Shown here piece by piece: positions 3,837 to 23,358 of a stretch of DNA of 53,835 nucleotides. The translations under genes and the position numbers were made by a program. Origin of the DNA: an uncultured Sphingomonadales bacterium (GTDB lineage: Bacteria; Pseudomonadota; Alphaproteobacteria; Sphingomonadales; Sphingomonadaceae). The stretch is from contig CALMZE010000052.1 of the NCBI GenBank assembly GCA_937870585.1, forward strand, positions 1 through 53,835. The letters are read 5' to 3'. The notes beneath the pieces are model-generated. The model made no database searches. It saw only the letters and a list, made by a program, of their open reading frames with translations, and was not told the origin of the DNA. Every line of letters begins with the position of its first letter. Positions within the stretch are counted from its first letter, which is position 1.

Positions 3837-3852
3837 AGTTATTGCACTAGGT
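3837..3852 (-). promoter_or_regulatory. Operator-like motif, copy A
   Basis: On the plus strand this reads AGTTATTGCACTAGGT, 13 of 16 matches to the perfect copy at 23343-23358. It lies in the divergent promoter region between the aldehyde dehydrogenase and the acyl-CoA ligase, 52-56 bp from both starts, so one bound regulator could control both directions. Confidence 0.5.
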
Positions 3853-3907
3853 AAACTATGTTGGCAAGATGACTCGCGCAATCAGTGGGGAAGGAGTTGG
3901 GCTGGAT

Positions 3908-5437
3908 ATGGCCCTGTTTACAGAAAAATTGCGGGCCATCATGGCGCTGGACCCGGCGCGGACCGAAATTGAATTTGAGGGCCAGGACCATAGTTGGGGT
4001 GATCTGGCGCGCGTTGTCGGGCAGATTGAGTCGGCGCTTCAAGCCATGGGTTTGCCAGAGGATGCGCGCGTGGGGGTGATGCTGCGCAACCGGCCCGGCC
4101 ATGTGGCGGCGATTCTGGCCGTGCTGTCAGGCAATCGCTGCCTCGTCACGCTCAACCCTGTTTTGCCCGATGAAAAATTGTTCGCCGATGTGGAGGGGCT
4201 GGGGCTTCCCGTGATCATTGCTGATGAGAGCGATGTTGCGCGGCCCGGCCTGACGGAGCATATTCGCAAGGCAGGCAGTGCGCTGATCGTGATCGGGGCG
4301 CGGCTGGAAGGCGCGCGTGTGGCGAAGGGATTTGAACGGCCCTTGGGCGCGATTCGCACCACGCCGGGCGTCGCCATTGAAATGCTAACCAGCGGCACCA
4401 CCGGCACGCCCAAGCGGGTTCCGCTGTCGCGCGCGGCGTTCGATGCCAGCTTTGTCGGCTTTTCCAGCTATGAACGCGGGCGGGATTATGTGGCCAAGCC
4501 GAAGCTGAGTTCCGGCGTGGCGCTCGTCACCAATCCGCTGACGCATATCGGCGGGATATATGGCTGCATCGGCGCGCTGATGAACGGTCGGAAAATGGCA
4601 ATCCTCGAAAAATTCAGCGTGGAAGGCTGGGTGGACATTATCCGCCGCAACCGGCCCAAGGTAGCGGGCGCGGTGCCTTCTGCCGTGCGGATGCTGTTGG
4701 AGGCAGATGTGGACAAGGCGGACCTGTCCAGCCTGTCCGCGCTGATCAGCGGTACGGCGCCGCTATCGCCCGATCTGGTGGATGCCTTTCTTGAAAAGTA
4801 CGGCATCCCGATCCTCGCCAATTATGGCGCAACCGAATTTGCCGGAGCGGTTGCAGGCTGGAGCCTTGATGATTTCCGCGCGCACTGGGCGGAAAAGAAG
4901 GGGGCGGCAGGCCGCATCCATGGCAATGTTGGCGCGCGGATTGTTGATCCGGACAGCGGAGACGCGGTGCCTCCGGGCGGCGAAGGGGTGCTCGAAATTC
5001 AGGGCGCGCAACTCGGAGGGGCGTATCCGCTTGGCAGCGCGTCATGGCTGCGCACCACAGATCGCGCGATGATGGATGAAGACCGCTTCCTCTACATCAA
5101 GGGCCGGGCAGATAATGCGATCATCCGGGGCGGGTTCAAGGTCCATCCCGATGATGTGGTGAAAGTGCTCAACCAGCATCCTGCCGTGCGGGAAGCCGCT
5201 GTGGTGGGCGTGCCCGATGCGCGGCTGGGGGCGGTGCCTGCGGCCGCGCTGATCCTGAAGGAGGGGGCGGCCCTGCCTGCGGACGATGCGTTCAAGGCGT
5301 GGCTCAGGGAGCGTCTGATCGCCTATCAGGTGCCGGTGCATTTCCGTGTGGTCGATGATTTTCCGCGTACGCCTTCGCTCAAACCATCTGCACCCGGCCT
5401 CAAGGCATTGTTTGACACAGAGGCCGCTTTGGCCTGA
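3908..5437 (+). CDS. AMP-binding acyl-CoA ligase
   Basis: 509 residues from the ATG at 3908, preceded by GGAAGGAG; an upstream ATG at 3869 would add 13 residues. The family adenylates a carboxylic acid and transfers it to CoA. Seen: the P-loop like A3 motif TSGTTGTPK around residues 161-169, NYGATEF in the middle, RTTDRAMMDED and the hinge KGRADNAIIRGGFKVHPDDVV, then a C-terminal region with a terminal lysine context TPSLKPSAPG in place of the usual SGK. The catalytic lysine position is therefore not certain. It starts the rightward catabolic operon (ligase, SDR, DUF2889). Confidence 0.85.
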   Translation: MALFTEKLRAIMALDPARTEIEFEGQDHSWGDLARVVGQIESALQAMGLPEDARVGVMLRNRPGHVAAILAVLSGNRCLVTLNPVLPDEKLFADVEGLGLPVIIADESDVARPGLTEHIRKAGSALIVIGARLEGARVAKGFERPLGAIRTTPGVAIEMLTSGTTGTPKRVPLSRAAFDASFVGFSSYERGRDYVAKPKLSSGVALVTNPLTHIGGIYGCIGALMNGRKMAILEKFSVEGWVDIIRRNRPKVAGAVPSAVRMLLEADVDKADLSSLSALISGTAPLSPDLVDAFLEKYGIPILANYGATEFAGAVAGWSLDDFRAHWAEKKGAAGRIHGNVGARIVDPDSGDAVPPGGEGVLEIQGAQLGGAYPLGSASWLRTTDRAMMDEDRFLYIKGRADNAIIRGGFKVHPDDVVKVLNQHPAVREAAVVGVPDARLGAVPAAALILKEGAALPADDAFKAWLRERLIAYQVPVHFRVVDDFPRTPSLKPSAPGLKALFDTEAALA

Positions 5438-5471
5438 TCGCAGGTCAGCATTCATAACAGGAGAGACTCGC

Positions 5472-6266
5472 ATGAAACTTGACAGCAATTTGTCCGCCGT
5501 TGTCACCGGCGGTGCGTCCGGGCTTGGCCGCGCCAGCGCAGAGGCGCTCGCCGCGCAGGGCATCAAAGTCGCCATTTTCGATGTGAATGAAGAAGGCGGT
5601 GAAGAGGTCGCCAAGGCGATTGGCGGCCTGTTCTGCAAGGTGGACATCACCTCTGAAGAGAGCGTTGTCGCAGGCTATGAAAAGGCGCGTGCGGCGCATG
5701 GGCAGGAACGCATTCTCGTTCATTGTGCAGTTGTCACCGGCGGTGGCAAGACGATCTCGTTCGACAAGGCGAGCGGCGGATATAAGCGCAACCCGACCGA
5801 AATGATCGCGCGCTCTGCCGAAGGCATCTTCACGGCCTCTTACCGCATGGCGTCTCACGCGGCGCTGGGCATGGCCAATGCCGATCCGCTGAATGAAGAT
5901 GGCGAGCGCGGCTGCATCATCATGACCTCCTCTGCGGCGTCGCAGGATGGGCAGATCGGGCAGGTCGCCTATGGCGGCGGCAAGGGCGCGGTCAACGCAA
6001 TGGTGCTGCCGATGGCACGCGACCTGATGGATCTGGGCATTCGCGTCAACGCGATCCTGCCGGGCATCTTTGCCACGCCGCCAATGCTCGCCGTTCAGGA
6101 CCGGGCACCGGCCATTTTTGCTGGCCTCGAAGCCTCTGTGCCCTTCCCGAAGCGTTTGGGCCGTCCGCCCGAATTCGGCTCGCTGGTCTGCGAGCTCGCG
6201 CGCAACACCTATTTCAACGGCCAGTGCATCCGGCTGGATGGGGCCATCCGCATGCCGCCCAAGTGA
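5472..6266 (+). CDS. SDR, 3-hydroxyacyl-CoA dehydrogenase type II-like
   Basis: 264 residues starting at the ATG at 5472, just after an AGGAGAG site. Seen: TGGASGLG cofactor motif (residues 11-18), FDVNEEGG after strand 2 (Asp, NAD-preferring), a MTSSAAS active-site serine, YGGGKGA as Tyr-x3-Lys and NGQCIRLDGA near the end. The pattern resembles HSD10/HSD17B10-type enzymes, which oxidise 3-hydroxyacyl-CoA or hydroxysteroids. It is 34 bp downstream of the ligase and 10 bp upstream of the DUF2889 gene, so one operon. Role in beta-oxidation is inferred from context. Confidence 0.85.
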   Translation: MKLDSNLSAVVTGGASGLGRASAEALAAQGIKVAIFDVNEEGGEEVAKAIGGLFCKVDITSEESVVAGYEKARAAHGQERILVHCAVVTGGGKTISFDKASGGYKRNPTEMIARSAEGIFTASYRMASHAALGMANADPLNEDGERGCIIMTSSAASQDGQIGQVAYGGGKGAVNAMVLPMARDLMDLGIRVNAILPGIFATPPMLAVQDRAPAIFAGLEASVPFPKRLGRPPEFGSLVCELARNTYFNGQCIRLDGAIRMPPK

Positions 6267-6276
6267 GGGCCGGGGC

Positions 6277-7281: not shown

Positions 7282-7337
7282 TCTGCCGGAAAGGGAATTT
7301 CCGCAAAGCGATTCTCCACTCTTGTATTGCTTGGTTG

Positions 7338-7353
7338 ACCTAGTTATACAACT
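7338..7353 (+). promoter_or_regulatory. Operator-like motif, copy B, over a promoter
   Basis: Reads ACCTAGTTATACAACT, 48 bp upstream of the TonB-receptor start. A candidate sigma-70 promoter overlaps it: TTGTAT at 7322-7327 and TATACA at 7345-7350 with a 17-bp spacer. A protein bound here would cover the -10 element, so repression is the simplest reading. Confidence 0.55.
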
Positions 7354-7400
7354 CATATCCCCGAGCCACAGATGCGCTCAACGACAGGGAGAGGGAGAAG

Positions 7401-9740
7401 ATGACGAAATTCGCTTCGCGGGCTCTGACCCGCTTCATGACGGGCGCTGCCATGTCCACTCTGGCGCTCGGTGCGTCTCCGGCGTTTGCCCAGACGGTCG
7501 CCAATGAGGCCAATGAGGGGGAAATCCTCGTGCTCGGCGTCACAAAGCAGGCCGAGAATATTCAGGACGTGCCGACGACGGTGACCGCGTTTGATGCGGT
7601 CAAGCTCGATCAGCAGGGCCTCAAGGACATCGCCTCGGTCGCCAACTTCACGCCGGGCGTGAACATTCGTGGCGGCGGCAACAATCCGACTGCGCTCAAC
7701 GTCTCGATCCGCGGGCAGATTCAGAATGATACGCTGGCCACGCTGGAGCCTTCGGTCGGCATCTACCTCGATGAACTCTATATCGCGCGCAACTACGGCA
7801 TTTCGGGCGAAATGGTCGATATGAAGAGCGTGCAGGTGCTCAAAGGCCCGCAAGGCACGCTGTTTGGCCGCAATACGTCCGCAGGTGCGGTCGTCATGCA
7901 GACGGCAGATCCGGAATTTGGTGCCGTGTCGGGCACGCTGCGCGCCACCTATGGACGGTTTGACGAGCGCTCTGGCTCGGGCGTGATCAACCTGCCGCTG
8001 GGAGAGAATGTGGCCGTACGCGGCGCGCTCTTCTATGCCAAGCGCGGCAATTATCAGCGCGATGTCAACACCGGCAAAGGCTATGGCAAGCGCGATATGA
8101 TCGACGGACGCATCAAGCTTTCCGCCAATCTGGCCGAGGGGCTCAACCTGTTGCTCTCTGGCGAATGGACAGACAGCGACATCAAAGGCCCGGCCTTCCA
8201 GAACACGCTCTTCTACCTTCCGGGCGTGGGCGATGTGGCAGCGGGTGATCGCGCCAAATACAAGAATGAGGACAGCGTCTCGATCACGCCCGCCACCGTC
8301 TTCACGGGGGCGCCCAAGGCTGATCTGTTCAACAGCATGAAAACCCAGACCTATATGGCCAAGCTGAAGCTTGAGACCGGGTTTGGCGAAATCAAGCTGA
8401 TCAACGGCTATCGTCACATCAAGGGCAACAACCTGATCGATCTGGATGGCTCATCCTTCCCCGGCCATTTCACGCAGGGCATCCAGAATCTGAAGCAATA
8501 TAGTTCGGAGCTTCAGGCGACCGGCAAGGCGTTCGGCGATATGGTCGATTTCGCTGCGGGGCTGACCTATATGCGCGAAACCGGCACGGACGATTCCCGC
8601 TCGGCCACGGTGCAGAACACGGCGATCTGGTCCGGCTTTTCGGGCGGACTGGATAACAATTCCTACGGCATCTACGCGCAGGCCAATGTCCATGCCAGCG
8701 ACAAGCTGAGCGTGGTGATCGGTGGCCGCTATTCGAAGGACAAGAAGGGCGTGATCGCCCAATCTGCTGTCTTCCCCGGTAACGGGACTGTGCCTGCCGT
8801 CTGCCTGCCGCAGACTTACCAGATTGCCAAGGTGCTGGCGGGCACGCTGACGGCGGCAGACTGCAATCGCAACCGGTCTGATACGTGGAACAATTTCTCC
8901 TACACAGTGGGGCTCAACTATCAGGTCAGCGATGACGTGATGGTCTACGCCAAGCAGAGCCGGGGCTATCGTGCCGGTGCGCAGCAGGCCCGCACACTGA
9001 CGCTGACCGATACGACCCCTGCCAATCCCGAAATCGTGAACGAGCAGGAAATCGGCATCAAGTCGCAATTTGCGGATCGCCGCGTCACGCTCAACCTTGC
9101 GGGCTTCCACAACAAGGTGCGGGATGCGCAGCGCAGCGTCATCCTCAACATTGGCGGCGTGAACCAGACGATCCTGGAGAATGCGGGCACCGAGACCTGG
9201 GGCTTTGAAACCGATTTCAACGTGAAGGTGACCGACGGTCTGGACCTGTTTGGCTCTTTCTCGGTGATCGACCCCAAATATACCAGTTATAACGGCTTTA
9301 CCTCGGTTGCCGGTGTGCTGACAGCGGTCGACAAGAGCGGCGACAATCTCGTCTCTGTGGTCAAGAAGACCTTCGCTGTGGGCGGCAATTATTCGGGTGA
9401 TCTCGGCTTTGCCCGATTGAACCTCAATGCCTCTTACTCATGGCGCGGCAAGTCGTTCCAGAACGGCGAACGCGGCCCCGGCTTCATTGCCAATGGCGTG
9501 CCCGCAGCGCTTGTGCCAGCCTATCTGAAGGCTGTCACCAGCAAGGCAATCGGCGTCACCAATGTGCGTGCGGCTTTGGCGTTCGGTCCCGAAGACAATT
9601 ATGAAATCGCGCTGTGGGGCAGGAACATCTTCAACGAAAGGACCGCCATTTACGCCCTCTACCTTGGCGGCCTCAATTATGTCGGCACGATGTGGAATGA
9701 TCCTGCGACTTATGGTGTGACGGCCACGCTCAAGTTCTGA
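7401..9740 (+). CDS. TonB-dependent outer-membrane receptor
   Basis: 779 residues. A signal peptide with a twin set of basic residues and an ASPAFAQ cleavage region spans about residues 1-30. A TonB-box-like segment (GEILVLGV) precedes the plug domain (QDVPTTVTAF, then GVNIRGGG, SIRGQ, LKGPQGTLFGRNTSAGAV), and the remainder is the 22-strand barrel ending in an aromatic residue (TATLKF). Such receptors import large or poorly soluble ligands across the outer membrane with TonB energy. Its place in the middle of the catabolic cluster and its shared operator motif suggest uptake of the pathway substrate rather than iron. A strong terminator follows. Confidence 0.92.
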   Translation: MTKFASRALTRFMTGAAMSTLALGASPAFAQTVANEANEGEILVLGVTKQAENIQDVPTTVTAFDAVKLDQQGLKDIASVANFTPGVNIRGGGNNPTALNVSIRGQIQNDTLATLEPSVGIYLDELYIARNYGISGEMVDMKSVQVLKGPQGTLFGRNTSAGAVVMQTADPEFGAVSGTLRATYGRFDERSGSGVINLPLGENVAVRGALFYAKRGNYQRDVNTGKGYGKRDMIDGRIKLSANLAEGLNLLLSGEWTDSDIKGPAFQNTLFYLPGVGDVAAGDRAKYKNEDSVSITPATVFTGAPKADLFNSMKTQTYMAKLKLETGFGEIKLINGYRHIKGNNLIDLDGSSFPGHFTQGIQNLKQYSSELQATGKAFGDMVDFAAGLTYMRETGTDDSRSATVQNTAIWSGFSGGLDNNSYGIYAQANVHASDKLSVVIGGRYSKDKKGVIAQSAVFPGNGTVPAVCLPQTYQIAKVLAGTLTAADCNRNRSDTWNNFSYTVGLNYQVSDDVMVYAKQSRGYRAGAQQARTLTLTDTTPANPEIVNEQEIGIKSQFADRRVTLNLAGFHNKVRDAQRSVILNIGGVNQTILENAGTETWGFETDFNVKVTDGLDLFGSFSVIDPKYTSYNGFTSVAGVLTAVDKSGDNLVSVVKKTFAVGGNYSGDLGFARLNLNASYSWRGKSFQNGERGPGFIANGVPAALVPAYLKAVTSKAIGVTNVRAALAFGPEDNYEIALWGRNIFNERTAIYALYLGGLNYVGTMWNDPATYGVTATLKF

Positions 9741-9765
9741 GCTGCTGTCACAGCGACCAAAATGA

Positions 9766-9797: not shown

Positions 9798-9810
9798 CTT
9801 GATTGGGAGT

Positions 9811-9837: not shown

Positions 9838-9846
9838 TTGGATTGA

Positions 9847-11070
9847 TCAGGCCGCCTGCATTTCCGCACAGCGCGCCGCGACGGCGGGCTTCAGATTGGC
9901 GCGGGCAAAGAGCTTCGCCGCATTGCCGCCCAGAACTGCAACGAGTTCATCCTGCGTCACATCTGGATTATCCACCATCATCTTGTCCACCACCTGTTTG
10001 GAGAAGGGGAAGGTGCCTTCAGCGTGGGGATAATCGGTCGCGAAGAGCAGCGCATCCACGCCCACGCCTTTGCGGATGGCCATCGAGCTGTTGCCATCAT
10101 TCTGGAGCGCGCAATGGACCTGATCGCGGACGATCTGGCTGGGCAAGCGGCTCAGCTTGGGCGTGATGCTCGGCGCGTGACCGTTATAAACTTCGTCCAT
10201 CCGCTCGGCGAGGCCCCAGAGCCAACCTGCTGAATGTTCGGCGAACAGGATGTGGGCACCCGGATTGCGATCAAGCACGCCGCCCGCGACGAGTTGGGTG
10301 ATGACATCCACGGCGTCGTTCATCTGGCGGGTATAGTTGAACAGTGCGCCGCCCGGCCCCTTGAGCGCCCGGATGTTGATGTCTCCCACGCCGGTGTGGA
10401 AGACGAGCGGGATGCCCTTTTCCGCCGCAAGCGCAAAGATCGGATCCCAGCGCGGATCATTATAATTGTTGAGGCCTTCCCACAGGCAGAAAGCGGCGAA
10501 GCCCTTTTCCGTGACGCGCTGGCATTCGGCGAGTGCAGCGTCGAAATCGATGCAGGGGATCATTGCAGCAGGGATCAGCCGTTCACGCGCGGCAGCGGTA
10601 TAGTCCCACACCCAGTCATTATAGATGCGGCAGGCTTCGGCCTGACCTTCGACATCGCCGATGCGCGGCAGCATCAGGCCCAGCGACGGGAAGACGAGTT
10701 CCGCATCCACTGCGTCGCGGTCCATATCGGCCAGCCGCAGCGTGAGGTCGCGCGCGCCCTTGCGCTTGGTGTCGACCGCGCAATCGGAGACGAAATTGTC
10801 CCCCGCATCAGTGCAGCTCCGGTCGGGCGCACCGTCATTGGTCTGCGCGTTGAAGGCGGCATCGCCTTCTCCGGTTTTGTGCTGGTGGAAGTTGGTGTTG
10901 ATCTTGAGGATCACCTGCTCGCCAATGCGTGTGATGCGCACATCGCCCTGCACTTCGCCATGGATGGCGAAATGTTTGAGGTGGGCGGGCATGGCATTGA
11001 GAAAGAGTTCGGGCGGCTCGGCCACATGGGCATCGCAGCTGAACACGAAGGGGCGGATTTTGTCGGTCAT
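9847..11070 (-). CDS. Amidohydrolase-superfamily protein (Amidohydro_2 type), first of three
   Basis: 407 residues. The N-terminus has the metal-binding Asp-x-His-x2-Glu pattern (CDAHVAEP, Asp13, His15, Glu18). A second His is seen in VFHTGVGD and the conserved Asp in FATDYPHAEG near the C-terminus. The family includes decarboxylases and hydrolases that cleave C-C or C-O bonds in ring-derived acids. About 33 residues longer than the paralogue at 13354-14469, to which it is clearly related (same SLGLMLP, NDWVWDY and DRNPGA blocks). Substrate unknown; in this cluster it could decarboxylate or hydrolyse a ring-opened intermediate. Confidence 0.85.
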   Translation of the reverse strand: MTDKIRPFVFSCDAHVAEPPELFLNAMPAHLKHFAIHGEVQGDVRITRIGEQVILKINTNFHQHKTGEGDAAFNAQTNDGAPDRSCTDAGDNFVSDCAVDTKRKGARDLTLRLADMDRDAVDAELVFPSLGLMLPRIGDVEGQAEACRIYNDWVWDYTAAARERLIPAAMIPCIDFDAALAECQRVTEKGFAAFCLWEGLNNYNDPRWDPIFALAAEKGIPLVFHTGVGDINIRALKGPGGALFNYTRQMNDAVDVITQLVAGGVLDRNPGAHILFAEHSAGWLWGLAERMDEVYNGHAPSITPKLSRLPSQIVRDQVHCALQNDGNSSMAIRKGVGVDALLFATDYPHAEGTFPFSKQVVDKMMVDNPDVTQDELVAVLGGNAAKLFARANLKPAVAARCAEMQAA

Positions 11071-11107
11071 AGCAGTCCTCCTGATTGTTGATGTCAGGAG
11101 GATGAAT

Positions 11108-11119
11108 AAAAAGGTATCT
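11108..11119 (-). promoter_or_regulatory. AAAAAGGTATCT motif, copy G
   Basis: Lies 38 bp upstream of the amidohydrolase start. The identical 12-mer is found at 14565-14576 before the GntR gene. On the minus strand it reads AGATACCTTTTTATTC, which matches the ATACCTAGTTATAC core of the main motif at 10 of 14 positions, so it may be a degenerate operator. Confidence 0.35.
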
Positions 11120-11208
11120 CTTTAATTTGATATGGGTCAAATATGGCATGAAGGCGTTATAAAATGATATTTCTCTAGACTCTCGTGGCTTCGGATTGAC
11201 ACAGACTG

Positions 11209-13353: not shown

Positions 13354-14469
13354 TCAAGCCGCCAACGCTTCGCTTGTTTGCACAGTGGGCGCGATCCGGA
13401 ACAGCCGGGCCGCATTCATCCCCAACACATCGCGCCGCACCGTGTCGCTGACATTCAGGCCCTCGAACAAGTCATCCACCAGGCGGCGGCTAACCGGGAA
13501 GGTGCCCTCAGCGTGCGGATAGTCCGAGCCCCACATCACATTCTTGGCACCCGGCAGGCCAGAGGCGGCGGCCAGGATGCAAGACCGGTCATGCTGGAAA
13601 CTCGCCCACACCTGATCGTCGATGATCTGGCTGGGGCGGCGGGAGAGTTTGGGGAAGACGAACTTGGCGTGCGCCTCTTCCACTTCATCCATGCGTTCGG
13701 CGAGGGCGACGAGCCAGCTGGCTCCGCTTTCGATGAAGGCAACCTTAGCACCCGGATTGCGATCCAGCACGCCGCCCGCGACGAGATATTGCACGCTGTT
13801 CTGCGCATCCATCGCCTGCTTGGTGTAGTTGATGATGCCAGCACCCGGCCCGCGCTCCGCGATTACGGTTTCCAGCCCGGTGCCGGTGTGCATCACGAAG
13901 ACGATGCCGAGTGCAGCCGCCTTGGCGAAGACCGGATCCCACGCCTCATCGTTGAATTTCGGCAAATTGGGTGGCGTGACCGAGGGGAGCATGGCGGAGG
14001 TGAAGCCCTTGCTCGCCAGATAGTCGAGCTCCGCCAGCGTGTTCGAAAAATCGAGGACGGGCAGCATCCCGCAGCGCACGAAGCGTGATGGATGGCCGGA
14101 GAGAAAACTGTCGTTCCAGTCATTATAGAGCCGGGCAGAGGCCGCTTCCGCTTCCGGGCTATCAAGGCAGTAGAGCCACAGGCCGAGCGACGGGAAGCAG
14201 ATTTCGGTGTCGATCCCTTCCAGCTCCATATCCTCCAGACGCCCCGGAATTTCGCGGATGCCCTTGCGCTGACTGTCTCCCAATTCCTTTTCGCGGTGTT
14301 GGCCGACGCGCAAGCGGTAAATCACCTTGTCCTGCGTGCCCGTGATCAGGAAGTCGCCTTCCTTACGCGTGTGGATGGCGTGGCGCTTCAGGCTGGCGGG
14401 CAGGCCGTCCTGGAACAGGGTGGCAGGCTCCATAATGTGGCTGTCTGCACTGAATACGAATGGTTTCAT
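13354..14469 (-). CDS. Amidohydrolase-superfamily protein, second of three
   Basis: 371 residues. Metal ligands are intact: Asp9, His11 and Glu14 in SADSHIMEP, a His in MHTGTG and Asp in WGSDYPHAEG. Related to the 407-residue protein at 9847-11070, so the two probably act on similar ring-derived acids, or one is specialised by duplication. The substrate cannot be named. It is transcribed away from the GntR regulator gene, and operator copy C lies 39 bp upstream of its start codon, nearly the same distance as the weaker motif before its paralogue (38 bp). Confidence 0.85.
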   Translation of the reverse strand: MKPFVFSADSHIMEPATLFQDGLPASLKRHAIHTRKEGDFLITGTQDKVIYRLRVGQHREKELGDSQRKGIREIPGRLEDMELEGIDTEICFPSLGLWLYCLDSPEAEAASARLYNDWNDSFLSGHPSRFVRCGMLPVLDFSNTLAELDYLASKGFTSAMLPSVTPPNLPKFNDEAWDPVFAKAAALGIVFVMHTGTGLETVIAERGPGAGIINYTKQAMDAQNSVQYLVAGGVLDRNPGAKVAFIESGASWLVALAERMDEVEEAHAKFVFPKLSRRPSQIIDDQVWASFQHDRSCILAAASGLPGAKNVMWGSDYPHAEGTFPVSRRLVDDLFEGLNVSDTVRRDVLGMNAARLFRIAPTVQTSEALAA

Positions 14470-14507: not shown

Positions 14508-14523
14508 ACCTAGTTATACAAGT
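14508..14523 (+). promoter_or_regulatory. Operator-like motif, copy C
   Basis: Reads ACCTAGTTATACAAGT in the divergent region between an amidohydrolase and the GntR regulator. Its complement contains TTGTATAACTA, an exact fit to TNGTNNNACNA, the half-symmetric pattern known for FCD-type GntR regulators. Autoregulation of the adjacent gene is therefore plausible. Confidence 0.55.
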
Positions 14524-14564: not shown

Positions 14565-14576
14565 AAAAAGGTATCT
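14565..14576 (+). promoter_or_regulatory. AAAAAGGTATCT motif, copy F
   Basis: Lies directly before the AAGGAGG ribosome site of the GntR gene, identical over 12 bp to the motif at 11108-11119. Could be a weak operator or an AT-rich leader feature. Confidence 0.3.
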
Positions 14577-14589
14577 TTAAGGAGGCCGC

Positions 14590-15270
14590 ATGGAAAAGGG
14601 CACAACATTGGTGGCGCGCACCGCGCGGGCTTTGGCGGAGATCAGCCTGTCCGTGGACGATGGCGCATTTCTGGGCGCGGAGGATGACCTGCTGACCCGC
14701 TTGGGTGTGAGCCGCCCCACGCTGCGGCAGGCTGCCAAGATTGCCGAGAATGACCGGCTGGTGAGTGTCAGGCGCGGGATCAAGGGTGGATTCTATGCTG
14801 CGCGGCCTGATGCGGCGGACGCCATCCGCACGCTCTCCCGCTTCCTCCGGCTCAAGGGCGCGACGCTGGAAGATATTATGGCAGTCAGCCGACTGGTGTC
14901 AGAAGAAGCGGCGGTGCTCGCGTGCGGGTGTGTCGATGAAGCCCTACGCACCCGGCTTGCGGCCTTCATGGCCGGGCTCGACAAGAATGACAGCGTGGGC
15001 GCGATGATCCGTGCTGAAGCCGATCTGGTGCACCTTATCGCGGCGATGAGCGGGAATGCGGCGATCGAACTGGTGATGGAAATCGGCTTTTCCTTCGGGA
15101 TGGAAGAAGAGGAGACCGGGCTCTACCGCGATGCCGGCCATCGGGGCGAGGCGCGCAAGATGCAGACGCAGCTCTGCGCTGCCATTCTGGATCGGGATGC
15201 CGATATTGCCCGGCTGTTGATGCGGCGGCGCTCGGTGATGCTTGCGGGGTGGTTGCGGGAGGCAGGGTAA
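14590..15270 (+). CDS. GntR-family regulator with FCD domain
   Basis: 226 residues. N-terminal winged helix-turn-helix at about residues 30-75: LLTRLGVSRPTLRQAAK (recognition helix) and a wing VSVRRGIKGGFYA. Residues 90-220 are all-helical with the spaced Asp/His pattern of FCD ligand-binding domains (EADLVHLIAAMSGN and later HRGEARKMQ). FCD regulators usually bind organic acids or acyl-CoA and are most often repressors. It is the only DNA-binding regulator seen in the catabolic region, which makes it the leading candidate for the repeated operator motif. A strong AAGGAGG precedes the start. Confidence 0.85.
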   Translation: MEKGTTLVARTARALAEISLSVDDGAFLGAEDDLLTRLGVSRPTLRQAAKIAENDRLVSVRRGIKGGFYAARPDAADAIRTLSRFLRLKGATLEDIMAVSRLVSEEAAVLACGCVDEALRTRLAAFMAGLDKNDSVGAMIRAEADLVHLIAAMSGNAAIELVMEIGFSFGMEEEETGLYRDAGHRGEARKMQTQLCAAILDRDADIARLLMRRRSVMLAGWLREAG

Positions 15271-15395: not shown

Positions 15396-15468
15396 TGATA
15401 CTTCTCCCATAAAGGGCGGGGCTTATTTCATCCGCCCTCTAGACAAGCCGCCAACCCCATCTTATCAA

Positions 15469-15484
15469 ACCTAGTTATATAGGT
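15469..15484 (+). promoter_or_regulatory. Operator-like motif, copy D
   Basis: Reads ACCTAGTTATATAGGT, 22 bp upstream of the thiolase start. With one more base on each side it forms the inverted repeat AACCTA-N6-TAGGTT. The TATATA inside could serve as a -10 element. Confidence 0.55.
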
Positions 15485-15505: not shown

Positions 15506-16723
15506 ATGGCCTGGTCCAATCAGGACAAGACAGCGATCGTCGGCATCGGCGCGACGGACTATTATGTGCGGGGGCAAAGCTGGCCGCGCACCATCAACGA
15601 TATGGCGGGGGAGGCGATCCTCAAGGCGTGCGCGGATGCCGGGATCAGCGTGAAGCAGCTCGATGGCTTTGCCTATTATTCGACGGCAGGCGCGGGCTAT
15701 CTCGACAAGTTTGATACCGCCTCTCTCATGGAAACGCTGGGGATGCCCAACGTCTCTTTCTCCGCGACGCTGACATCGGGCGGCGGCGGGTGTCCCGGTG
15801 CCATCGGGCTGGCGACGGCAGGGCTGGTCAATGAGGATTGCACCTATGCCGTCACGGTGATGGCGCTCCAGCAATTGCCGCAACATCGGCTGGGCGTCGT
15901 GTTCGGTGCGGCCGCGCCAAGCCCGGAAAACAGCTTTCTGCAACCCTCCGGACTGGTCGGGCCGGGGCATTTGATGTCGATGCTGACGCGGCGACACATG
16001 CACCTCTACGGAACGCAGCAGGCCGCCTTCAAGGAGATCGTGCAGGCGACGCGCGACAATGCGACGCGGCGGCCCAAGGCGGTGCGGCAGAAGCACTTGT
16101 CTGACGAGGACTATTGGGGCTCCCCCATGCTCGCCGATCCGCTGCGGCGGCTCGATTTCTGTCTGGAAACCGATGGCGCGGTGGCGGTCATCACCACCAC
16201 CATGGATCGCGCCAAGGACTGCCGCCACAAGCCTGCGGTCGTTCACGCCTGTGCGCATGGCGGGCAGCGCGAATGGGGCCGCGCGTTTGCATGGATGGGT
16301 ATGCCCGATCCGCATTTCGCGTCCTCAGGGCACAAGTTCACAGCGGATCGCGTCTGGGCGCAATCGGGCCTCTCCGCGAAGGACATGGATGTGGCCCTGC
16401 TCTACGACCATTTCTCCCCCATGGTGCTGATGCAGTTGGAGGATTATGGCTTTTGCGAAAAGGGCGAAGGGAGCGATTATGTCCTCTCCGGCAAGGTCCG
16501 CTATGATGCCGCCACGCAAAGCGGTGTGAATGGCGGCGTGCCTGTCAACACGCATGGCGGCAATCTCAACGAAGCCTATATCATCGGCATGACGCATGTT
16601 GTCGAAGGTGTGGAACAGGTGCGCGGCACCGCCATCAACCAGGTGAAGGATGCGGAATTCGCGCTCGTCTCCGGTGGCCCGGCTTCACTGCCCGTTTCCA
16701 GCCTGATTTTGAGGAGCGCCTGA
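15506..16723 (+). CDS. Thiolase-like lipid-transfer protein (Ltp-type acyltransferase or retro-aldolase)
   Basis: 405 residues with a thiolase fold: AIVGIGATDY at the N-terminus, a glycine-rich nucleophile-region segment TSGGGGCPGAIGLA near residue 90, and a C-terminal NTHGGNLNEAY in the place of the GHPxG motif of true thiolases. These changes are like those in Ltp2-type proteins, which cleave beta-hydroxyacyl-CoA by retro-aldol reaction together with a DUF35 partner. The DUF35 gene follows with a 1-bp overlap, so a two-protein complex is very likely. Whether it is thiolytic or aldolytic cannot be settled from sequence. GAGAGGA ribosome site precedes the ATG. Confidence 0.82.
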   Translation: MAWSNQDKTAIVGIGATDYYVRGQSWPRTINDMAGEAILKACADAGISVKQLDGFAYYSTAGAGYLDKFDTASLMETLGMPNVSFSATLTSGGGGCPGAIGLATAGLVNEDCTYAVTVMALQQLPQHRLGVVFGAAAPSPENSFLQPSGLVGPGHLMSMLTRRHMHLYGTQQAAFKEIVQATRDNATRRPKAVRQKHLSDEDYWGSPMLADPLRRLDFCLETDGAVAVITTTMDRAKDCRHKPAVVHACAHGGQREWGRAFAWMGMPDPHFASSGHKFTADRVWAQSGLSAKDMDVALLYDHFSPMVLMQLEDYGFCEKGEGSDYVLSGKVRYDAATQSGVNGGVPVNTHGGNLNEAYIIGMTHVVEGVEQVRGTAINQVKDAEFALVSGGPASLPVSSLILRSA

Positions 16724-17163
16724 TGTCTGACGCGATCCCTTATGGCCCGGCGCTCCATCTGCCGGGTGACCAGATCCGCATTTCCACCAATCCCGATACC
16801 GAACCCTTCTGGGAGGCCGCGAAGGCCCATCGACTGACCGCCTGCCAATGTGCAGACTGCGGCCATTTCCGGATGCCGCCTTCGCCCTATTGCCCCGAAT
16901 GTTCGAGCACGGCGAAGACTTGGCCCGACCTGCCCGGTACAGGCACGGTGTTCAGCTATGTGGTCTGCAACCGCAATCCCAAGGACGGCTCAGCCTATAT
17001 CTATGTGCCGGTGGTCGTCGATCTGGACGGCGCACCCGGCGCGCGGCTGAACGCCAATGTCGCGGGCTGCAACGCGGAAGATGTGCAGATTGGCATGAAA
17101 GTGCGTGTGGAGTGGACGCCCATTCAGGATGGATGGGTGCTGCCCAATTTCGTGAAGGCCTGA
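16723..17163 (+). CDS. DUF35 OB-fold and zinc-ribbon protein (partner of the Ltp protein)
   Basis: 146 residues. An N-terminal helix is followed by a rubredoxin-like zinc ribbon CADC-x10-CPEC (residues about 44-61), then an OB-fold (GTVFSYVVCNRNP, VPVVVDLDG, GMKVRVEW). In characterised systems such a protein binds acyl-CoA and is required by the adjacent thiolase-like enzyme (for example the Ltp2-ChsH2 DUF35 aldolase). The start codon overlaps the stop of the upstream gene by one base (TGATG), indicating translational coupling. All four cysteines are present. Confidence 0.85.
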   Translation: MSDAIPYGPALHLPGDQIRISTNPDTEPFWEAAKAHRLTACQCADCGHFRMPPSPYCPECSSTAKTWPDLPGTGTVFSYVVCNRNPKDGSAYIYVPVVVDLDGAPGARLNANVAGCNAEDVQIGMKVRVEWTPIQDGWVLPNFVKA

Positions 17164-17167
17164 CGCC

Positions 17168-19381
17168 ATGCTGCGGGATCTGCGGATCGTTGAAATCGGG
17201 CAGGGGCAGGCGGTTCAGGTGGCAGGGCTCATGCTCGCTGCACTCGGTGCGGATGTGCTCAAGGTCGAGCGGCCCGGCGGCGATCCGGCGCGGGGCACGG
17301 CGCGCTTTGCCAACTGGAACCGCAACAAGCGCAGTCTGGTGCTTGATCTGGATAAACAGGATAGCCGTGCCGCCTTGGCGCAGCGGCTGGATGGTGCAGA
17401 TGTGCTGATCCACCAGTTCACGCCCAAATGCGCGCAGGCGCTGGGGTTGGATGATTCGACGCTTGGCGTGGCATATCCCCGGCTGGTGGTGTGTGGCATC
17501 ACGGGCAGCCCCTATAATCACCCTGACGTCGAACGGTCTGATGATGAACTGCTCGTCGCGGCGCGCTTTGGGGCGCTTTATGAGAATGACGGCTATCGCG
17601 CGGGGCCGATTGTGTGGCGCTTCAATGCGGGGCACTGGTCTGCTGCGCATCTGGCAGCGGCGGGCATCCTCGCGCGGCTGACGGCGCGGCTGCAATCAGG
17701 GCAGGGTGGGGCGGCGCACACCTCCATCTATCAGGGATATATGGGGATGCTGCCGCTCATCTGGGCGCGCAATTCCAAGGGACCGATGCCCAACAATCCG
17801 CCGCACCCGCTGGGGCCGCGTCCGATAAGCCAGCAACTCTATCAATGTGCCGATGGCGACTGGTTGCAGGTGATGGACCCGCCGCGCCAGTTTGACTACG
17901 CAACGATGCCCACCATGTGGGACGTGCTGGCCGAAGGGGCAGAGATCGAGACGGAAGCGGGCAAGGAAGACTCGATGCGCCGCCGCCCGCTGGAAAGCTG
18001 GCTCACCGATCTTCGCGCGGCGGACATTGCGGCGGAACCCGCTTACCCGCTGGGAGAAATGCTTCGGCATCCCGAAGTGCTGGCCAATGGTTATGCGGTG
18101 GAAGTAGATGATCCGGTGTTGGGCCAGACCATCCAGCCCAATGTGCCATTCCACAGCGATGCGGAGCTGCCTGTGCCGAGCGCGGCTCCGGGCTTGGGGG
18201 AGGGGGGAGAGGAGCATTGGCCCCCCACGAACCCCAAGACAGTCCTTCGACAAGCTCAGGACGAGCGTCGCTCTCAAGGCATACTCGATGGCACCCGCGT
18301 GCTTGATTTCGGCATGTTCCTCGCCGGACCCATGGCCCCTTCCATGATGGGGGATATGGGCGCGGATGTGATCAAGGTTGAGCCGCTGACCGGGGATCGC
18401 ATCCGCTTCATGCACCGCTATTATCAGGCGGCGTCGCGCTCCAAACGATCGATTGCAGTCGATCTGACGCGGCCTGAGGCCGAGCCGATCCTCGCGCGGC
18501 TGCTGCAATGGGGCGAGGCGATCCACCATAATATGCGCTTCAAGGGCGCGACCAAGCTGGGACTCTCCGAAGAGGGCATCCGCAAGCACAACCCGGACAT
18601 CACCTTCAACTATGTCAGTGCCTATGGCCAGCGCGGCGAACGCGGCAACTGGCCTGGCTATGACTCAATCTTCAACGCGATTGCGGGTTGGGAGTTCGAG
18701 AATGCGGGGCAGGGCAACAAGCCCATGTTCAACCGCCCCGGCACGATGGACGCGATGTCCGCCCAGTCTGCACTCGTGGAGATGATGGCTTCGCTCTACG
18801 CCAAACGCAGCGGCCAACGCGGCTATACAACGCACAGCTCGCTGCTTGGCATATCGGCGCTGACGCAGGGGGAAACACTGATTCTGCCCGATGGGACTTT
18901 GGCTGAGACCTATCATCTTGATGCGGCACAGACGGGGTTCGGGCCGTATCACCGGATTTACGAGTGTGCGGATGGCTGGGTGGCCATCGCGGCGCATCGA
19001 GCCGATGAACGCAATGCGATGGCACAGCTCCTAGGGGACGAGGAGGCGTTTGAGGCAAATGCCCGCACTTGGAAACAGGCTGACTTGCTCGCCGCGCTCG
19101 AAGCGGCGGGCGTGCCGTGCGATGCCGTGACATTTGAAGATGCGCAGAACCGGTTTTTCGACACGCCGCTCAATCGAGAGCTCAATCTGATCTCGGTTCT
19201 TGAACAGCCAACATATGGGACTGTCGAGCAATTCGGGGCCTATTGGAATTTTGGCGATGTGCCGGTGGTGTTCAAGCGCGCCTGCCCCGATCTGGGGGAG
19301 CATACGGACGAGATCATGCGCGAACTGGGGTTCAGTGAGGGTGAGATTGCGGACTATCGCGCGAACGGCGTGATTGCCTGA
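17168..19381 (+). CDS. Fused double CaiB/BaiF (class III) CoA-transferase
   Basis: 737 residues, about twice the usual family length. Module 1 spans residues 1-350 (RIVEIGQGQAVQVAGLMLAA, ADVLKVERPGGDP) and module 2 about 375-737 (RVLDFGMFLAGPMAP, GADVIKVEPLTGDR, NPDITFNYVSAYGQRG). Family members are interlocked dimers; a tandem fusion probably makes a pseudodimer, with perhaps one working active site. They move CoA between acids without a cost in ATP, or act as racemases. The linker near residues 359-369 is encoded by a palindromic repeat (see 18240-18273). It follows the DUF35 gene by 4 bp and ends the rightward operon. Confidence 0.85.
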   Translation: MLRDLRIVEIGQGQAVQVAGLMLAALGADVLKVERPGGDPARGTARFANWNRNKRSLVLDLDKQDSRAALAQRLDGADVLIHQFTPKCAQALGLDDSTLGVAYPRLVVCGITGSPYNHPDVERSDDELLVAARFGALYENDGYRAGPIVWRFNAGHWSAAHLAAAGILARLTARLQSGQGGAAHTSIYQGYMGMLPLIWARNSKGPMPNNPPHPLGPRPISQQLYQCADGDWLQVMDPPRQFDYATMPTMWDVLAEGAEIETEAGKEDSMRRRPLESWLTDLRAADIAAEPAYPLGEMLRHPEVLANGYAVEVDDPVLGQTIQPNVPFHSDAELPVPSAAPGLGEGGEEHWPPTNPKTVLRQAQDERRSQGILDGTRVLDFGMFLAGPMAPSMMGDMGADVIKVEPLTGDRIRFMHRYYQAASRSKRSIAVDLTRPEAEPILARLLQWGEAIHHNMRFKGATKLGLSEEGIRKHNPDITFNYVSAYGQRGERGNWPGYDSIFNAIAGWEFENAGQGNKPMFNRPGTMDAMSAQSALVEMMASLYAKRSGQRGYTTHSSLLGISALTQGETLILPDGTLAETYHLDAAQTGFGPYHRIYECADGWVAIAAHRADERNAMAQLLGDEEAFEANARTWKQADLLAALEAAGVPCDAVTFEDAQNRFFDTPLNRELNLISVLEQPTYGTVEQFGAYWNFGDVPVVFKRACPDLGEHTDEIMRELGFSEGEIADYRANGVIA
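18240..18273 (+). repeat. REP-like half element inside the CoA-transferase gene
   Basis: The segment CCTTCGACAAGCTCAGGACG belongs to the family found between genes at 20384-20474, 45344-45466 and 46900-46990. Here it is read in frame as VLRQAQDERRS, joining the two CoA-transferase modules. Confidence 0.75.
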
Positions 19382-19384
19382 ATG

Positions 19385-19477
19385 CGTCATTCCCGCGAAG
19401 GCGGGAATCCTTGAGCACCGGCGTTGCCAAGCCGGGATCAGCTGTGTCCTTGAACCCCCGCCTTCGCGGGGGTGACG
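19385..19477. repeat. REP-like inverted pair (ATTCCCGCGAAGGCGGGAAT family), second copy
   Basis: CATTCCCGCGAAGGCGGGAA faces a diverged inverted copy (CCCCCGCCTTCGCGGGGGTG) after about 45 bp, exactly between the convergent stops of the CoA-transferase and the SDR. It may act as a bidirectional terminator. Confidence 0.75.
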
Positions 19478-19484
19478 GAGACGC

Positions 19485-20357: not shown

Positions 20358-20383
20358 GAATTCTATCTCCGAAACATCAACCC

Positions 20384-20474
20384 CACCGCTCGCCCTGAGC
20401 TTGTCGAAGGGCTGTCCTTCCCGCTTGGGACCAAGGGAGAAGACAGTGCATCGACAAGCTCAAGGCGAGCGGTG
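20384..20474. repeat. REP-like inverted pair (CTTGTCGAAG family)
   Basis: Arm CACCGCTCGCCCTGAGCTTG faces its near-perfect inverted copy ending GGCGAGCGGTG; the arms are about 25 bp long and 45 bp apart. Located between the SDR and enoyl-CoA hydratase genes. Confidence 0.8.
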
Positions 20475-20481
20475 AGGGGGG

Positions 20482-21261
20482 TCATTTTCCTTTGTAAACC
20501 GGCTTCCGCTTTTCGCGCAGCGCGGCGCGCGCTTCCTGATAATCCTCGGTCTTGAACAAGGCGGTTTGCGCGAGCAATTCCTGCGCGATGCCGTTGCGCA
20601 CTGCGCCTGCATGGGCCTGATCAATCATGGTCTTGGCCATGGCGAGCGCGATGGGGGGCTTGGCAGCAATTTTGGTGGCGATCTCCAGCGCCTTGGCGTC
20701 CAGCTCTTCGGGGGGAACCAAGAAATCCACAGCCCCCCATTCGAGCGCCGTCTGCGCGTCGATGCGCTCGCCGGTCATCACCATATATTTGGTGCGCGCC
20801 GGGCCGATCAGCGCGGTCATCAACTGGGTGCCGCCGGTATCGGGCAGGATGCCGTAATGAATTTCGGGGAGTGCCATCTTCAGGTCCGTGGACGACACGC
20901 GGATGTCGCAGGACAGCGCCGTTTCGCAGCCCCCGCCAATGACCGCGCCTTTGAGCGCCGCGACGAACGGCTTGGGGCTGTCCATCACGGTCAGCCGCTT
21001 CTGCTGGTGATGGAGGACGAAGTGATAGTCGCTCTCATCCTTGGCGCGGTGGCCGAGCATGGTCGTATCCCGCCCTGAACAGAAGGATGTGCCGGCCCCC
21101 TGAAGCAGCACGGCACGCACCGCATCATCGCTCAGCGCGGTGTCGAGCGCATCCTTGTAGAGCGCCGCCGCTTCATCATCCATCGCGTTATGGACCTCAG
21201 GCCGGTTGAGCGTGATGATGCCCACACCCGCGCGAACCTCGTAAAGAACCTTGGCACTCAT
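20482..21261 (-). CDS. Enoyl-CoA hydratase/isomerase
   Basis: 259 residues, crotonase fold. Oxyanion-hole segments are seen at SFCSGRDTTML (residues 59-69) and KGAVIGGGCE (104-113). Both glutamates used by classical hydratases are present: Glu113 in GGGCETALSCD and Glu133 in ALPEIHYGILP. Hydration of a trans-2-enoyl-CoA is thus expected. The start overlaps the stop of the upstream ACAD gene by ATGA (21258-21261), so it is co-translated with the ACAD pair. The substrate would be the enoyl-CoA that pair produces. Confidence 0.88.
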   Translation of the reverse strand: MSAKVLYEVRAGVGIITLNRPEVHNAMDDEAAALYKDALDTALSDDAVRAVLLQGAGTSFCSGRDTTMLGHRAKDESDYHFVLHHQQKRLTVMDSPKPFVAALKGAVIGGGCETALSCDIRVSSTDLKMALPEIHYGILPDTGGTQLMTALIGPARTKYMVMTGERIDAQTALEWGAVDFLVPPEELDAKALEIATKIAAKPPIALAMAKTMIDQAHAGAVRNGIAQELLAQTALFKTEDYQEARAALREKRKPVYKGK

Positions 21262-22148
21262 GCAGTGTCTCCCAACAGGATGGCGCGTGATGGTGGCGCG
21301 ATGAAGGACAGAAGATGCGCGCGCTTGAGGCAGAGATGTGGGCTGGCTTCATCGGTCATGCCGATGCCGCCATGGATCTGGATGTTGGCGCGCCCATTGG
21401 CGATGGCAGCCTCCCCGGCGAGCTGGCGGACAGCGGCGATATGGAAGGCGGCATCCTCCGCCCCATCATCCAGCGCGCAGGCGGCATAGCAGAGCTGCGC
21501 ACGTGAGGCCTCGGTGCGGACAGCCATGTCTGCGGCCATATGCTTGATCGACTGGAACCAGCCGATGGGCCGGTCAAATTGTTCACGGATTTTCGCGTAA
21601 TTTGCTGCCATATCCCGCGAAGCCTCTGCACAGCCCAGCGCAAAGGCTGCGGTCAGCACTTGCAGGTGAAGGGCCGCGCGCGGATCGTCGATGAGGTTGG
21701 GGGCGGGCGCAATGTCCAGCATCGCCATGGGGGCGGACAGATCGAGCCCCGTCTCCCCGCGCGCGCTGGCGGGGACCATGATCAATCCGGCCTGGCCCTC
21801 CCAAAGGCCGATGGCGGCTGTTGCACTTTCCGGATCGAACAGGCGGATTTTGCCTTCAGCAGGCAAAGCGAGCGCAAAATGGCCCGGCCCTACCCAGCGT
21901 TGGCCGACGGCCGTGGCGAGCAGCCCGATGGGCGCGAGGTGGCGGCCCAGTTCGGCAAAGACCAGCGCTTCGGTCGCATGACAAAGCCCCATGGCAGGCG
22001 CAGTCATGCCGCAATAGCCCATTGCCTCCAGATCGGCCCAGAGCGTGGGCGTGCGATGGCGCGCAGCCTCCAAAGGCAAGGCGTCGCGGCACCAGTCTGT
22101 CGTGGCGGTGAGAAGGCTTTCCTGTTCGGGCGAAAGGCTCAGGTCCAT
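21258..22148 (-). CDS. Acyl-CoA dehydrogenase family protein, short subunit
   Basis: 296 residues, shorter than the usual 380. The N-terminal helical domain is present (LSPEQESLLTATTDWCRD), the middle beta domain is reduced and the LSEPxxGSD substrate-binding segment is absent, while the C-terminal FAD-contact region is clear (REQFDRPIGWFQSIKHM and QIHGGIGMTDE). This profile fits the second subunit of heteromeric acyl-CoA dehydrogenases such as FadE28/FadE29-type alpha2beta2 enzymes for steroid side chains. Its partner is the gene 3 bp upstream (22152-23303). Start chosen at the only good ATG. Confidence 0.85.
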   Translation of the reverse strand: MDLSLSPEQESLLTATTDWCRDALPLEAARHRTPTLWADLEAMGYCGMTAPAMGLCHATEALVFAELGRHLAPIGLLATAVGQRWVGPGHFALALPAEGKIRLFDPESATAAIGLWEGQAGLIMVPASARGETGLDLSAPMAMLDIAPAPNLIDDPRAALHLQVLTAAFALGCAEASRDMAANYAKIREQFDRPIGWFQSIKHMAADMAVRTEASRAQLCYAACALDDGAEDAAFHIAAVRQLAGEAAIANGRANIQIHGGIGMTDEASPHLCLKRAHLLSFIAPPSRAILLGDTA

Positions 22149-22151
22149 GAT

Positions 22152-23303
22152 CTACCTCGATTTGGGCAGGCCGAGCAGCCGCTCGCCGATGATGTCACGC
22201 TGGATTTGCGCGGTGCCGCCCGCGATGGTGGATGCAAAGCCGCGCAGATAATCCGCAACGAGCGTGTCGTCACCATAATGGAAATCAAGGATGTCCGGCC
22301 CGGCAAGTTGCAGCGCCATGCGTTTGAGCCTCTGCCCGAGCTCAGCGGTGAAGAGGCGGATCACGGACGCTTCCGGACCCGGTTGGCCGGTGCGGATGAC
22401 GGTGGAGATGTTGCGATACGTCATCGCCCGTAGTGCCGCCACTTCGGCACGCATCGTGGCGAGCTGTTCGGCAACACTGTCATCCCTGATCGCGCCGCTG
22501 GTGCGCGCGGTTCTCAGCAATTCTTCAATTTCCTGAGCCTGCTTCACCTGATCGGCGATGAAGCCCGTGCCACGTTCAAAGCTGAGCGTCGACATGGCGA
22601 CTTTCCAGCCATTGCCCAGCCCGCCGACCACATTGGCCAGCGGGACGCGCACATCATCGTAAAAGACTTCGGCAAATTCCACCTGTCCGCTCATCTTGCG
22701 GATCGGGCGGATGGTGATGCCGGGCGCGTGCATGTCGCAAATCACCCAGCTCAATCCCTTGTGGCGGGTCGAGCCTTCCTCTGTGCGCAGCACCAGTTCC
22801 TGCCAGTCCGCGACATGCGCGAAGCTAGTCCAGATCTTTGAGCCGTTGATGACGAGTTCGTCGCCTTCGATACGGCCCTTGGTCTTGATCCCCGCCAGAT
22901 CGCTGCCTGCGCCGGGTTCAGAAAAGCCCTGACACCAGATCGCCTCGCCGCGCAGGATGCGGGGGAGGTGGTATGCCTTTTGCGCATCGCTGGCGTTGAG
23001 GATCAAGGTCGGCCCGCCATGGTTGATGCCCACAAAATTCGCGCCGATCCATGGGGCATGGGCCTTGGCATATTCCTCCAGCCAGATGACTTGCTGGACG
23101 ATGGAAAGGCCGCGCCCGCCATAGTCCGTCGGCCAGTTGATGCCAGCCCAGCCCGCATCGAACAGGCGGCGCTGCCACGCCTTGTCAAAATCCAGCGCAT
23201 CGGTGGCGTTCATCGGGCGCTTTTCGGCGGGCACATGGGTATGAAGCCAATCGCGGCATTCGGCACGAAAGCGCTGCTCTTCGTCAGAAAATCGAATGTC
23301 CAT
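22152..23303 (-). CDS. Acyl-CoA dehydrogenase, long subunit
   Basis: 383 residues, complete three-domain ACAD: N-terminal EEQRFRAECRDWL, GWPTDYGGRG-like INWPTDYGGRG, FSEPGAGSDLAGIKT (FAD and substrate), NGSKIWTSFAH, SFERGTG in the helical domain, and the C-terminal AGGTAQIQRDII. The classical EGT glutamate is Gly, as in the class that works as heteromers or uses another base. It forms one transcription unit with the short subunit and the hydratase, giving dehydrogenation then hydration of one acyl-CoA. The best copy of the operator motif (E) is 40 bp upstream. Confidence 0.88.
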   Translation of the reverse strand: MDIRFSDEEQRFRAECRDWLHTHVPAEKRPMNATDALDFDKAWQRRLFDAGWAGINWPTDYGGRGLSIVQQVIWLEEYAKAHAPWIGANFVGINHGGPTLILNASDAQKAYHLPRILRGEAIWCQGFSEPGAGSDLAGIKTKGRIEGDELVINGSKIWTSFAHVADWQELVLRTEEGSTRHKGLSWVICDMHAPGITIRPIRKMSGQVEFAEVFYDDVRVPLANVVGGLGNGWKVAMSTLSFERGTGFIADQVKQAQEIEELLRTARTSGAIRDDSVAEQLATMRAEVAALRAMTYRNISTVIRTGQPGPEASVIRLFTAELGQRLKRMALQLAGPDILDFHYGDDTLVADYLRGFASTIAGGTAQIQRDIIGERLLGLPKSR

Positions 23304-23342
23304 CAGCAGCGGGGCTCCTCAAGCGTGATCATGATCTATATT

Positions 23343-23358
23343 ACCTAGTTATATAACT
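23343..23358 (-). promoter_or_regulatory. Operator-like motif, copy E
   Basis: ACCTAGTTATATAACT on the plus strand, containing the perfect 12-bp palindrome AGTTATATAACT, 40 bp upstream of the ACAD start. On the minus strand TTGAGT and AT-rich hexamers nearby could form the promoter. This is the most symmetric of the copies. Confidence 0.6.

Follow-up and report, generated by a model that had tools for sequence, protein, structure and literature searches.

The window analysed here, a stretch of 53,835 nucleotides that makes up the entire contig CALMZE010000052.1 (C52) of an uncultured Sphingomonadaceae bacterium, carries a catabolic gene cluster in which five promoters share a 16-bp motif (consensus ACCTAGTTATAYAACT). 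Judged by its recurrence, conservation and position, this motif is almost certainly the operator of a dedicated regulon. Co-occurrence and gene neighbourhood point to GntR-B, a GntR protein encoded outside the window (C57:5628-6386), as the quite probable operator-binding protein. The original prediction had instead proposed a binding assay with GntR-A, the divergent FCD-type GntR protein encoded at 14590..15270 (+ strand). To the explanation as a whole, one regulon operator bound by GntR-B, with GntR-A downstream and associated with a second palindrome, we assign a probability of about 0.7.

Five copies of one motif in the window

The window was scanned for matches to the consensus, and all five copies reported in the original prediction were recovered with the same positions and strands. 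These are ACCTAGTGCAATAACT (3837..3852, - strand, three mismatches to the consensus), between an aldehyde dehydrogenase gene (ALDH, -) and an acyl-CoA ligase gene (+); ACCTAGTTATACAACT (7338..7353, +, no mismatch), in the promoter of a TonB-dependent receptor; ACCTAGTTATACAAGT (14508..14523, +, one mismatch), in the divergent region between amidohydrolase 2 and GntR-A; ACCTAGTTATATAGGT (15469..15484, +, two mismatches), in a thiolase promoter; and ACCTAGTTATATAACT (23343..23358, +, no mismatch), adjoining the start of an acyl-CoA dehydrogenase gene (ACAD). Their intergenic placement also stood, as did the presence of ACCTAGT in 5/5 copies and of the 11-mer ACCTAGTTATA in 4/5. A sixth match, at 23347 (-), mirrors the 23343 site; with up to three mismatches allowed, no further copy was found in the whole window, the prediction having noticed none in the housekeeping or island parts. 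Dinucleotide shuffles of the window yielded a mean of 0.03 matches, and none of 100 shuffles gave six or more, so that the copies lie far above chance.

Distances between sites and start codons depend on whether the start of the longest open reading frame (ORF) or the start with the best coding score is chosen. The 15469 site lies 21 bases from the thiolase start codon; the 7338 site, 47 bases from the TonB receptor start (83 with the coding-score start); the 14508 site, 38 (or 74) bases from the amidohydrolase start and 66 from that of GntR-A; and the 23343 site, 39 (or 108) bases from the ACAD start. At the 3837 site the coding-score starts are 51 (ALDH) and 55 (ligase) bases away, and in the longest ORFs ALDH starts at 3881, overlapping the site, and the ligase at 3869, 16 bases off. 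This copy is the weakest, with a matrix score of 16.3 of 30.4 bits; it was retained because two loci from relatives (L178 and L191) hold a perfect operator copy beside the orthologue of its divergent ligase.

Conservation among sphingomonads

Using the window CoA-transferase as query, 65 loci were collected from named genomes, 24 from sphingomonads (at least 64% identity) and 41 more distant. The motif (up to three mismatches) was present in 24/24 sphingomonad loci, in which the control, here and in the other motif scans a count of reversed pattern or sequence matches, gave one match. The 41 distant loci, totalling 640,835 bases, held two motif matches versus nine in the control. Of the 24 source genomes, 20 were scanned in full with one mismatch allowed; the motif was detected in 20/20, and the matches summed to 121 versus 7 in the control, with two genomes (G132 and G136) contributing one match each. 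Sphingopyxis sp. PET50 has a closed chromosome, on which all eight matches fell between 946,362 and 1,020,455.

The 139 distinct sites obtained with up to two mismatches belonged mostly to orthologous promoter classes represented across genera, 11 being without a recognised neighbour. A same-strand predicted start lay within 120 bp of 126 of them, eight had only a divergent start and five had neither; two lay inside predicted ORFs. Within the family the strict motif was rare (3/119 and 12/397 genomes, the own genome counted). Conservation in homologous promoters of related sphingomonads, on which the original prediction had been staked, was therefore found, and the motif is rare in genomes without the cluster. 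Recurrent, intergenic, conserved at orthologous promoters and co-occurring with a regulator, the motif has the properties of a bacterial regulon operator.

Assignment of the 23343 site to the ACAD promoter held only in part. The site does adjoin the start of ACAD (22152..23303, -), but the corresponding site in relatives points to a rightward NMO/ACAD gene rather than to ACAD. Such a rightward gene was not found in the window; the site is followed here by a small DUF123 ORF (23415-23858) and then a DUF7064/7065 gene (23947-24981), which suggests that 23303-24981 is a rearranged end of the cluster.

Sites elsewhere in the genome

The own genome comprises 3.80 Mb in 233 contigs. It contains the 11-mer ACCTAGTTATA five times, four of them in the window, versus three occurrences of the reversed control. 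A relaxed pattern, ACNWRGTTWTAYARST, which was devised after the sites had been seen, matched nine sites versus none in the control: four on C52, three on C57 (1096, 5544 and 6406), C41:189 and C193:8726. With three mismatches allowed there was no excess (13 matches versus 34 in the control); that count is uninformative, and weak copies are therefore not credible from sequence alone. The signal in this genome is the clustering of sites together with the tight pattern. Taken with the shuffles and the counts in relatives, the nine-to-none result rules out a chance repeat.

C57:1096 precedes a FAS1/MaoC-type hydratase gene, with a ligase-like gene divergent from it, both orthologous to PET50 genes (950434 and 948877). 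C57:5544 stands in front of GntR-B, C41:189 adjoins an enoyl-CoA hydratase gene (ECH) and C193:8726 lies near another MaoC-type hydratase. The regulon thus exceeds five promoters, adding three sites on C57 and one each on C41 and C193, and the claim that the motif joins separate operons in one regulon is upheld by the genome scan as well as by conservation in homologous promoters.

Co-occurrence of the motif with GntR-B and GntR-A

In 397 genomes of the family we looked for the motif, for GntR-B (26 genomes at an E cut-off of 1e-50) and for GntR-A (14 genomes at a cut-off of 1e-30). Among the 12 genomes with the strict motif, GntR-B was present in 11 and GntR-A in six; the genome without either regulator (G210) has a single odd copy. 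A widened pattern gave 19 genomes, of which GntR-B was present in 19/19 and GntR-A in 8/19, where the 19/19 is not independent, the pattern having been chosen after ACTTAGTTAGMTAWGT-type sites were seen near GntR-B, and the strict count is. Sorted by class, the widened pattern occurred in 0/4 genomes with GntR-A only, 11/16 with GntR-B only, 8/10 with both and 0/367 with neither; the strict pattern occurred in 5/16 with GntR-B only and 1/367 with neither. Gene order agreed with these counts: in 9/11 GntR-A-less loci checked (G140, G199, G037, G242, G279, G311, G342, G255 and G291; exceptions G343 and G214), an ACAD gene precedes GntR-B by 29-84 bases, and a site is located some 90-105 bases upstream of that ACAD gene. 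In each of six of these genomes (G140, G199, G242, G311, G342 and G037) a third site, ACTTAGTTAGCTATGT, lies outside the GntR-B cluster; a predicted gene is found some 100 bp from it in 2/3 loci scanned (L239 and L241).

Several observations weigh against GntR-B as the binder. The E cut-offs for the two proteins were unequal, same-genus genomes are not independent, and GntR-A-less carriers of the motif are confined to g38, g42, g73, G210 (g63) and the incomplete G347 (g1). The 20 cluster genomes carry both regulators (GntR-A 20/20, GntR-B 20/20) and hence do not discriminate. Seven of the 26 GntR-B genomes lack the motif (G285, G161, G214, G264, G277, G366 and G381), three of them (G264, G366 and G381) having a homologue of 50-54% identity. 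A recognisable site lies within 150 bp upstream in only 12/35 GntR-B homologues, and it points away from GntR-B; C57:5544 is likewise oriented away, and at the ACAD-GntR-B loci the site points away from both genes, towards a divergent one. Weaker matrix matches exist in G264, G381 and G214 (best 22.9 bits, in G264) and were left uncounted because reversed controls of other loci reach most such scores. Counting in favour of GntR-B, its paralogues with 40-42% identity have ACCTAGTTAGAYGATA about 140 bp upstream in 3/5 cases (L138, L139 and L141; not L140 or L027), hinting at a wider operator family.

Domains and predicted folds of the two proteins

GntR-B has an N-terminal GntR winged helix (PF00392, 7.2e-19, 67.6 bits versus a cut-off of 27) and a C-terminal FCD domain (PF07729, 7.1e-16, 59.2 bits versus 24.3), and is an ordinary FadR-subfamily (FCD) GntR protein. 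GntR-A fell below both Pfam cut-offs (23.1 versus 27 and 22.2 versus 24.3 bits). AlphaFold2 models of GntR-B (predicted local distance difference test score 86, predicted template modelling score 0.67) and GntR-A (90 and 0.76) both match FCD-GntR structures, namely NanR (6on4), CGL2915 (2di3), GntR (6az6) and FadR (1hw1). By sequence, the nearest solved relative of GntR-B is NanR (1.4e-13). Its modelled C-terminal domain is all-helical, and H158, H228 and H232, which may be FCD ligand or metal-pocket residues, are invariant there (21/21). No conserved histidines were found in the C-terminal domain of GntR-A.

Promoter geometry and operator symmetry

Promoters of the thiolase class contain T[AG]GACA-N17-TAnnnn ending exactly at the operator start (19/19), and those of the TonB-receptor class contain TTGTnn-N17-TATAYA with the -10 inside the operator (18/18, window included); orthologous promoter sequences are not independent, and the 19/19 mainly reflects conservation. 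For the window this predicts a thiolase promoter with -35 TAGACA (15440-15445, +), N17 and -10 TATCAA (15463-15468) abutting the operator, and a TonB-receptor promoter with -35 TTGTAT (7322-7327, +) and -10 TATACA (7345-7350) within it. Two differing overlaps with the polymerase site would fit a repressor operator. They exclude a pure core-promoter element, because one such element cannot explain a -10 inside the motif in one class and in front of it in the other. As a point against the overall explanation, the MaoC class showed no clear -35/-10; the other classes, too, gave no clear box pair.

The operator core is AGTTATATAACT, with ACC on one side. In the 139 sites its dyad was best centred at 10.5 (90% of six pairs), and in 12 distinct sites from the widened-pattern genomes 8.5 (65% of eight pairs) and 10.5 (64%) tied, so that the dyad may be centred at either. 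A further point against GntR-B is that most sites lack the TKGT-N3-ACMA palindrome given as the FadR-subfamily operator consensus in PMC4494728. GT-N3-AC is confined to sites with C at position 12 (21% of the 139), and position 5 is A in 96%.

GntR-A and a second palindrome

Alignment of the DNA upstream of GntR-A revealed a second palindrome that is conserved and adjoins the start codon; in the window it reads AAAGGTATCTTT (14567..14578). A copy, AAAGGTATCTCT (11110..11121), precedes amidohydrolase 1 (9847-11070), and both are candidate GntR-A operators. In 38 loci, ANAGRTAYCTNT gave 18 matches versus one in the reversed control, one of the 18 being the same site in two overlapping loci (L024 and L155); 17/18 lay outside predicted ORFs, and ten were placed before GntR-A and eight before amidohydrolase 1, window sites counted. 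Upstream of 20/28 GntR-A homologues and of 0/35 GntR-B homologues, AGRTAYCT occurred separately from the main motif; in L038 it occupies the place that the main motif has in other loci. The palindrome is also carried by G366, which has GntR-A and no main motif. GntR-A thus probably binds this palindrome and is itself controlled via the 14508 site. GntR-A looks like a regulon target with its own second operator, and the palindrome probably marks a separate small regulon.

These findings bear on the alternatives. That GntR-A, the protein named for a binding assay in the original prediction, is the cognate regulator and controls its own gene via the 14508 site accords with an operator in the amidohydrolase 2/GntR-A intergenic region of the window and of 19/20 relatives with both genes (L038 having a degenerate one only), with the position of GntR-A beside the thiolase operon in 20/24 loci (two of the four exceptions, L029 and L039, being short contigs), with its presence in all 20 cluster genomes searched (in two at 40%) and with its co-occurrence with the strict motif (p 5e-7). 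We nevertheless consider it unlikely: half of the strict-motif genomes and 11/19 with the widened pattern lack GntR-A, the motif is absent from 4/4 genomes with GntR-A only, the GntR-A promoter holds a different palindrome that persists in motif-less G366, and the conserved histidines are missing from its C-terminal domain. Distant GntR-A homologues (30-36%) had no motif in the upstream DNA inspected, three loci (L231-L233) being without a matrix match.

If both proteins bound the motif with overlapping specificities, whether as homodimers or as a heterodimer, this would account for its presence in 8/10 genomes with both regulators, for a helix segment, SRPTLR[QE]A, common to most GntR-A and GntR-B members, and for several Sphingopyxis loci in which AGATACCT, the core of the GntR-A palindrome, overlaps with the operator (AGATACCTAGTTA). 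Retention of the main motif in GntR-B-only genomes, and the restriction of the second palindrome to GntR-A and amidohydrolase-1 promoters, make this marginally less probable still. Finally, co-occurrence by itself is no proof of binding, and GntR-B might merely travel with the cluster while an unlinked or unrecognised factor binds the motif, but this is very improbable, as comparison of the GntR-B-only locus L209 with seven others recognised no other shared transcription factor in more than 2/8 loci, with GntR-B itself called in 6/8 and a 476-residue gene common to four left unscanned. The weak HTH_29 protein in that comparison occurred in 2/8. Two named candidates were rejected: a 410-residue gene near GntR-B encodes a riboflavin enzyme, and L148:17166-17729, the TetR regulator encoded in the PET50 cluster, was present in three of the loci searched, its own included.

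Genes of the cluster

Pfam domains in the window cluster identify ALDH (2316..3785, -), the AMP-binding acyl-CoA ligase (3908..5437, +), a DUF2889 protein, the TonB-dependent receptor (7401..9740, +) and two amidohydrolases, the second of which (13354..14469, -) is, like the ALDH, ligase and receptor, a regulon target. A fused ACAD was also identified. The thiolase-like gene (lipid-transfer type; 15506..16723, +) is the first of an apparent operon with its OB_ChsH2 partner (16723-17163) and a fused CoA-transferase III (17168-19381); SDR, ECH and an ACAD pair complete the set. From this gene content, the substrate may be a branched, alicyclic or steroid/terpenoid-like acid. A region at 30452-37047, with a tyrosine integrase, a Prim-Pol primase, a DUF3987 protein and an AIPR protein, is apparently an integrated element adjoining the cluster.

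Discussion

We propose that the operator governs one Sphingomonadaceae regulon whose products import a substrate, activate it with CoA and carry out acyl-CoA oxidation. A dimer of GntR-B would bind the operator and block RNA polymerase, and an intermediate of the pathway (probably acyl-CoA or carboxylate) would release it; promoter geometry and knowledge of the family make such relief of repression likely. GntR-A, itself an operator target, would probably act via AAnAGRTAYCTnTT at its own promoter and that of amidohydrolase 1.

FCD GntR repressors such as E. coli NanR, FadR and PdhR and Agrobacterium VanR resemble GntR-B in domain layout and predicted fold, and their operators also lie near promoters. 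They likewise act on divergent target genes in carboxylate or acyl-CoA catabolism. Identity between GntR-B and NanR is 24% in the structural alignment. Atypical operators are known within the FadR subfamily (PMC4494728), and the operators of BioR and NanR depart from TKGT-N3-ACMA as the present one does. BioR, also a GntR protein with an atypical palindrome (TTATMKATAA, of the form TTAT...ATAA; PMC4494728), differs in its biotin genes and operator spacing. PheR of Sphingobium SHPJ-2 (PMC13273656) is similarly a sphingomonad catabolic-operon repressor that affects TonB-dependent uptake genes, with an operator covering the start site, which we count as a likeness; unlike GntR-B it belongs to the IclR family, and it has a GCAACG core and concerns phenanthrene.

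A cluster on the Rhodococcus rhodochrous plasmid pGD02.2.1 (L199) also groups CoA-transferase (44%), DUF2889, amidohydrolase, thiolase and ECH genes, but has TetR-type regulators and ABC transporters, and the 42 kb covered hold neither a GntR protein nor a TonB receptor; it may be the same pathway, controlled differently, in another phylum. Literature searches by motif letters and by regulon and cluster terms, with most subscription papers outside their reach, returned no description of the regulon, and papers matching the motif letters were unrelated by title. We regard the regulon as a new one of a type already known.

The fuller picture, a two-tier circuit in which a master GntR-B acts on an atypical operator merged into the core promoter and GntR-A heads a sub-regulon, is offered tentatively. 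If true, GntR-B would control an acyl-CoA catabolic supercluster, with sites spread over 74 kb in PET50, and GntR-A would be a paralogue with a degenerate sensor domain, placed under the master operator and in charge of a small sub-regulon. Through the operator, many operons of a sphingomonad catabolic supercluster that is apparently uncharacterised, some of them located on other contigs, are linked to a single pathway and a single candidate regulator. The GntR protein that deserves the first assay is now a different one, and the set of operators offers a handle on the substrate: whatever frees GntR-B from the DNA.

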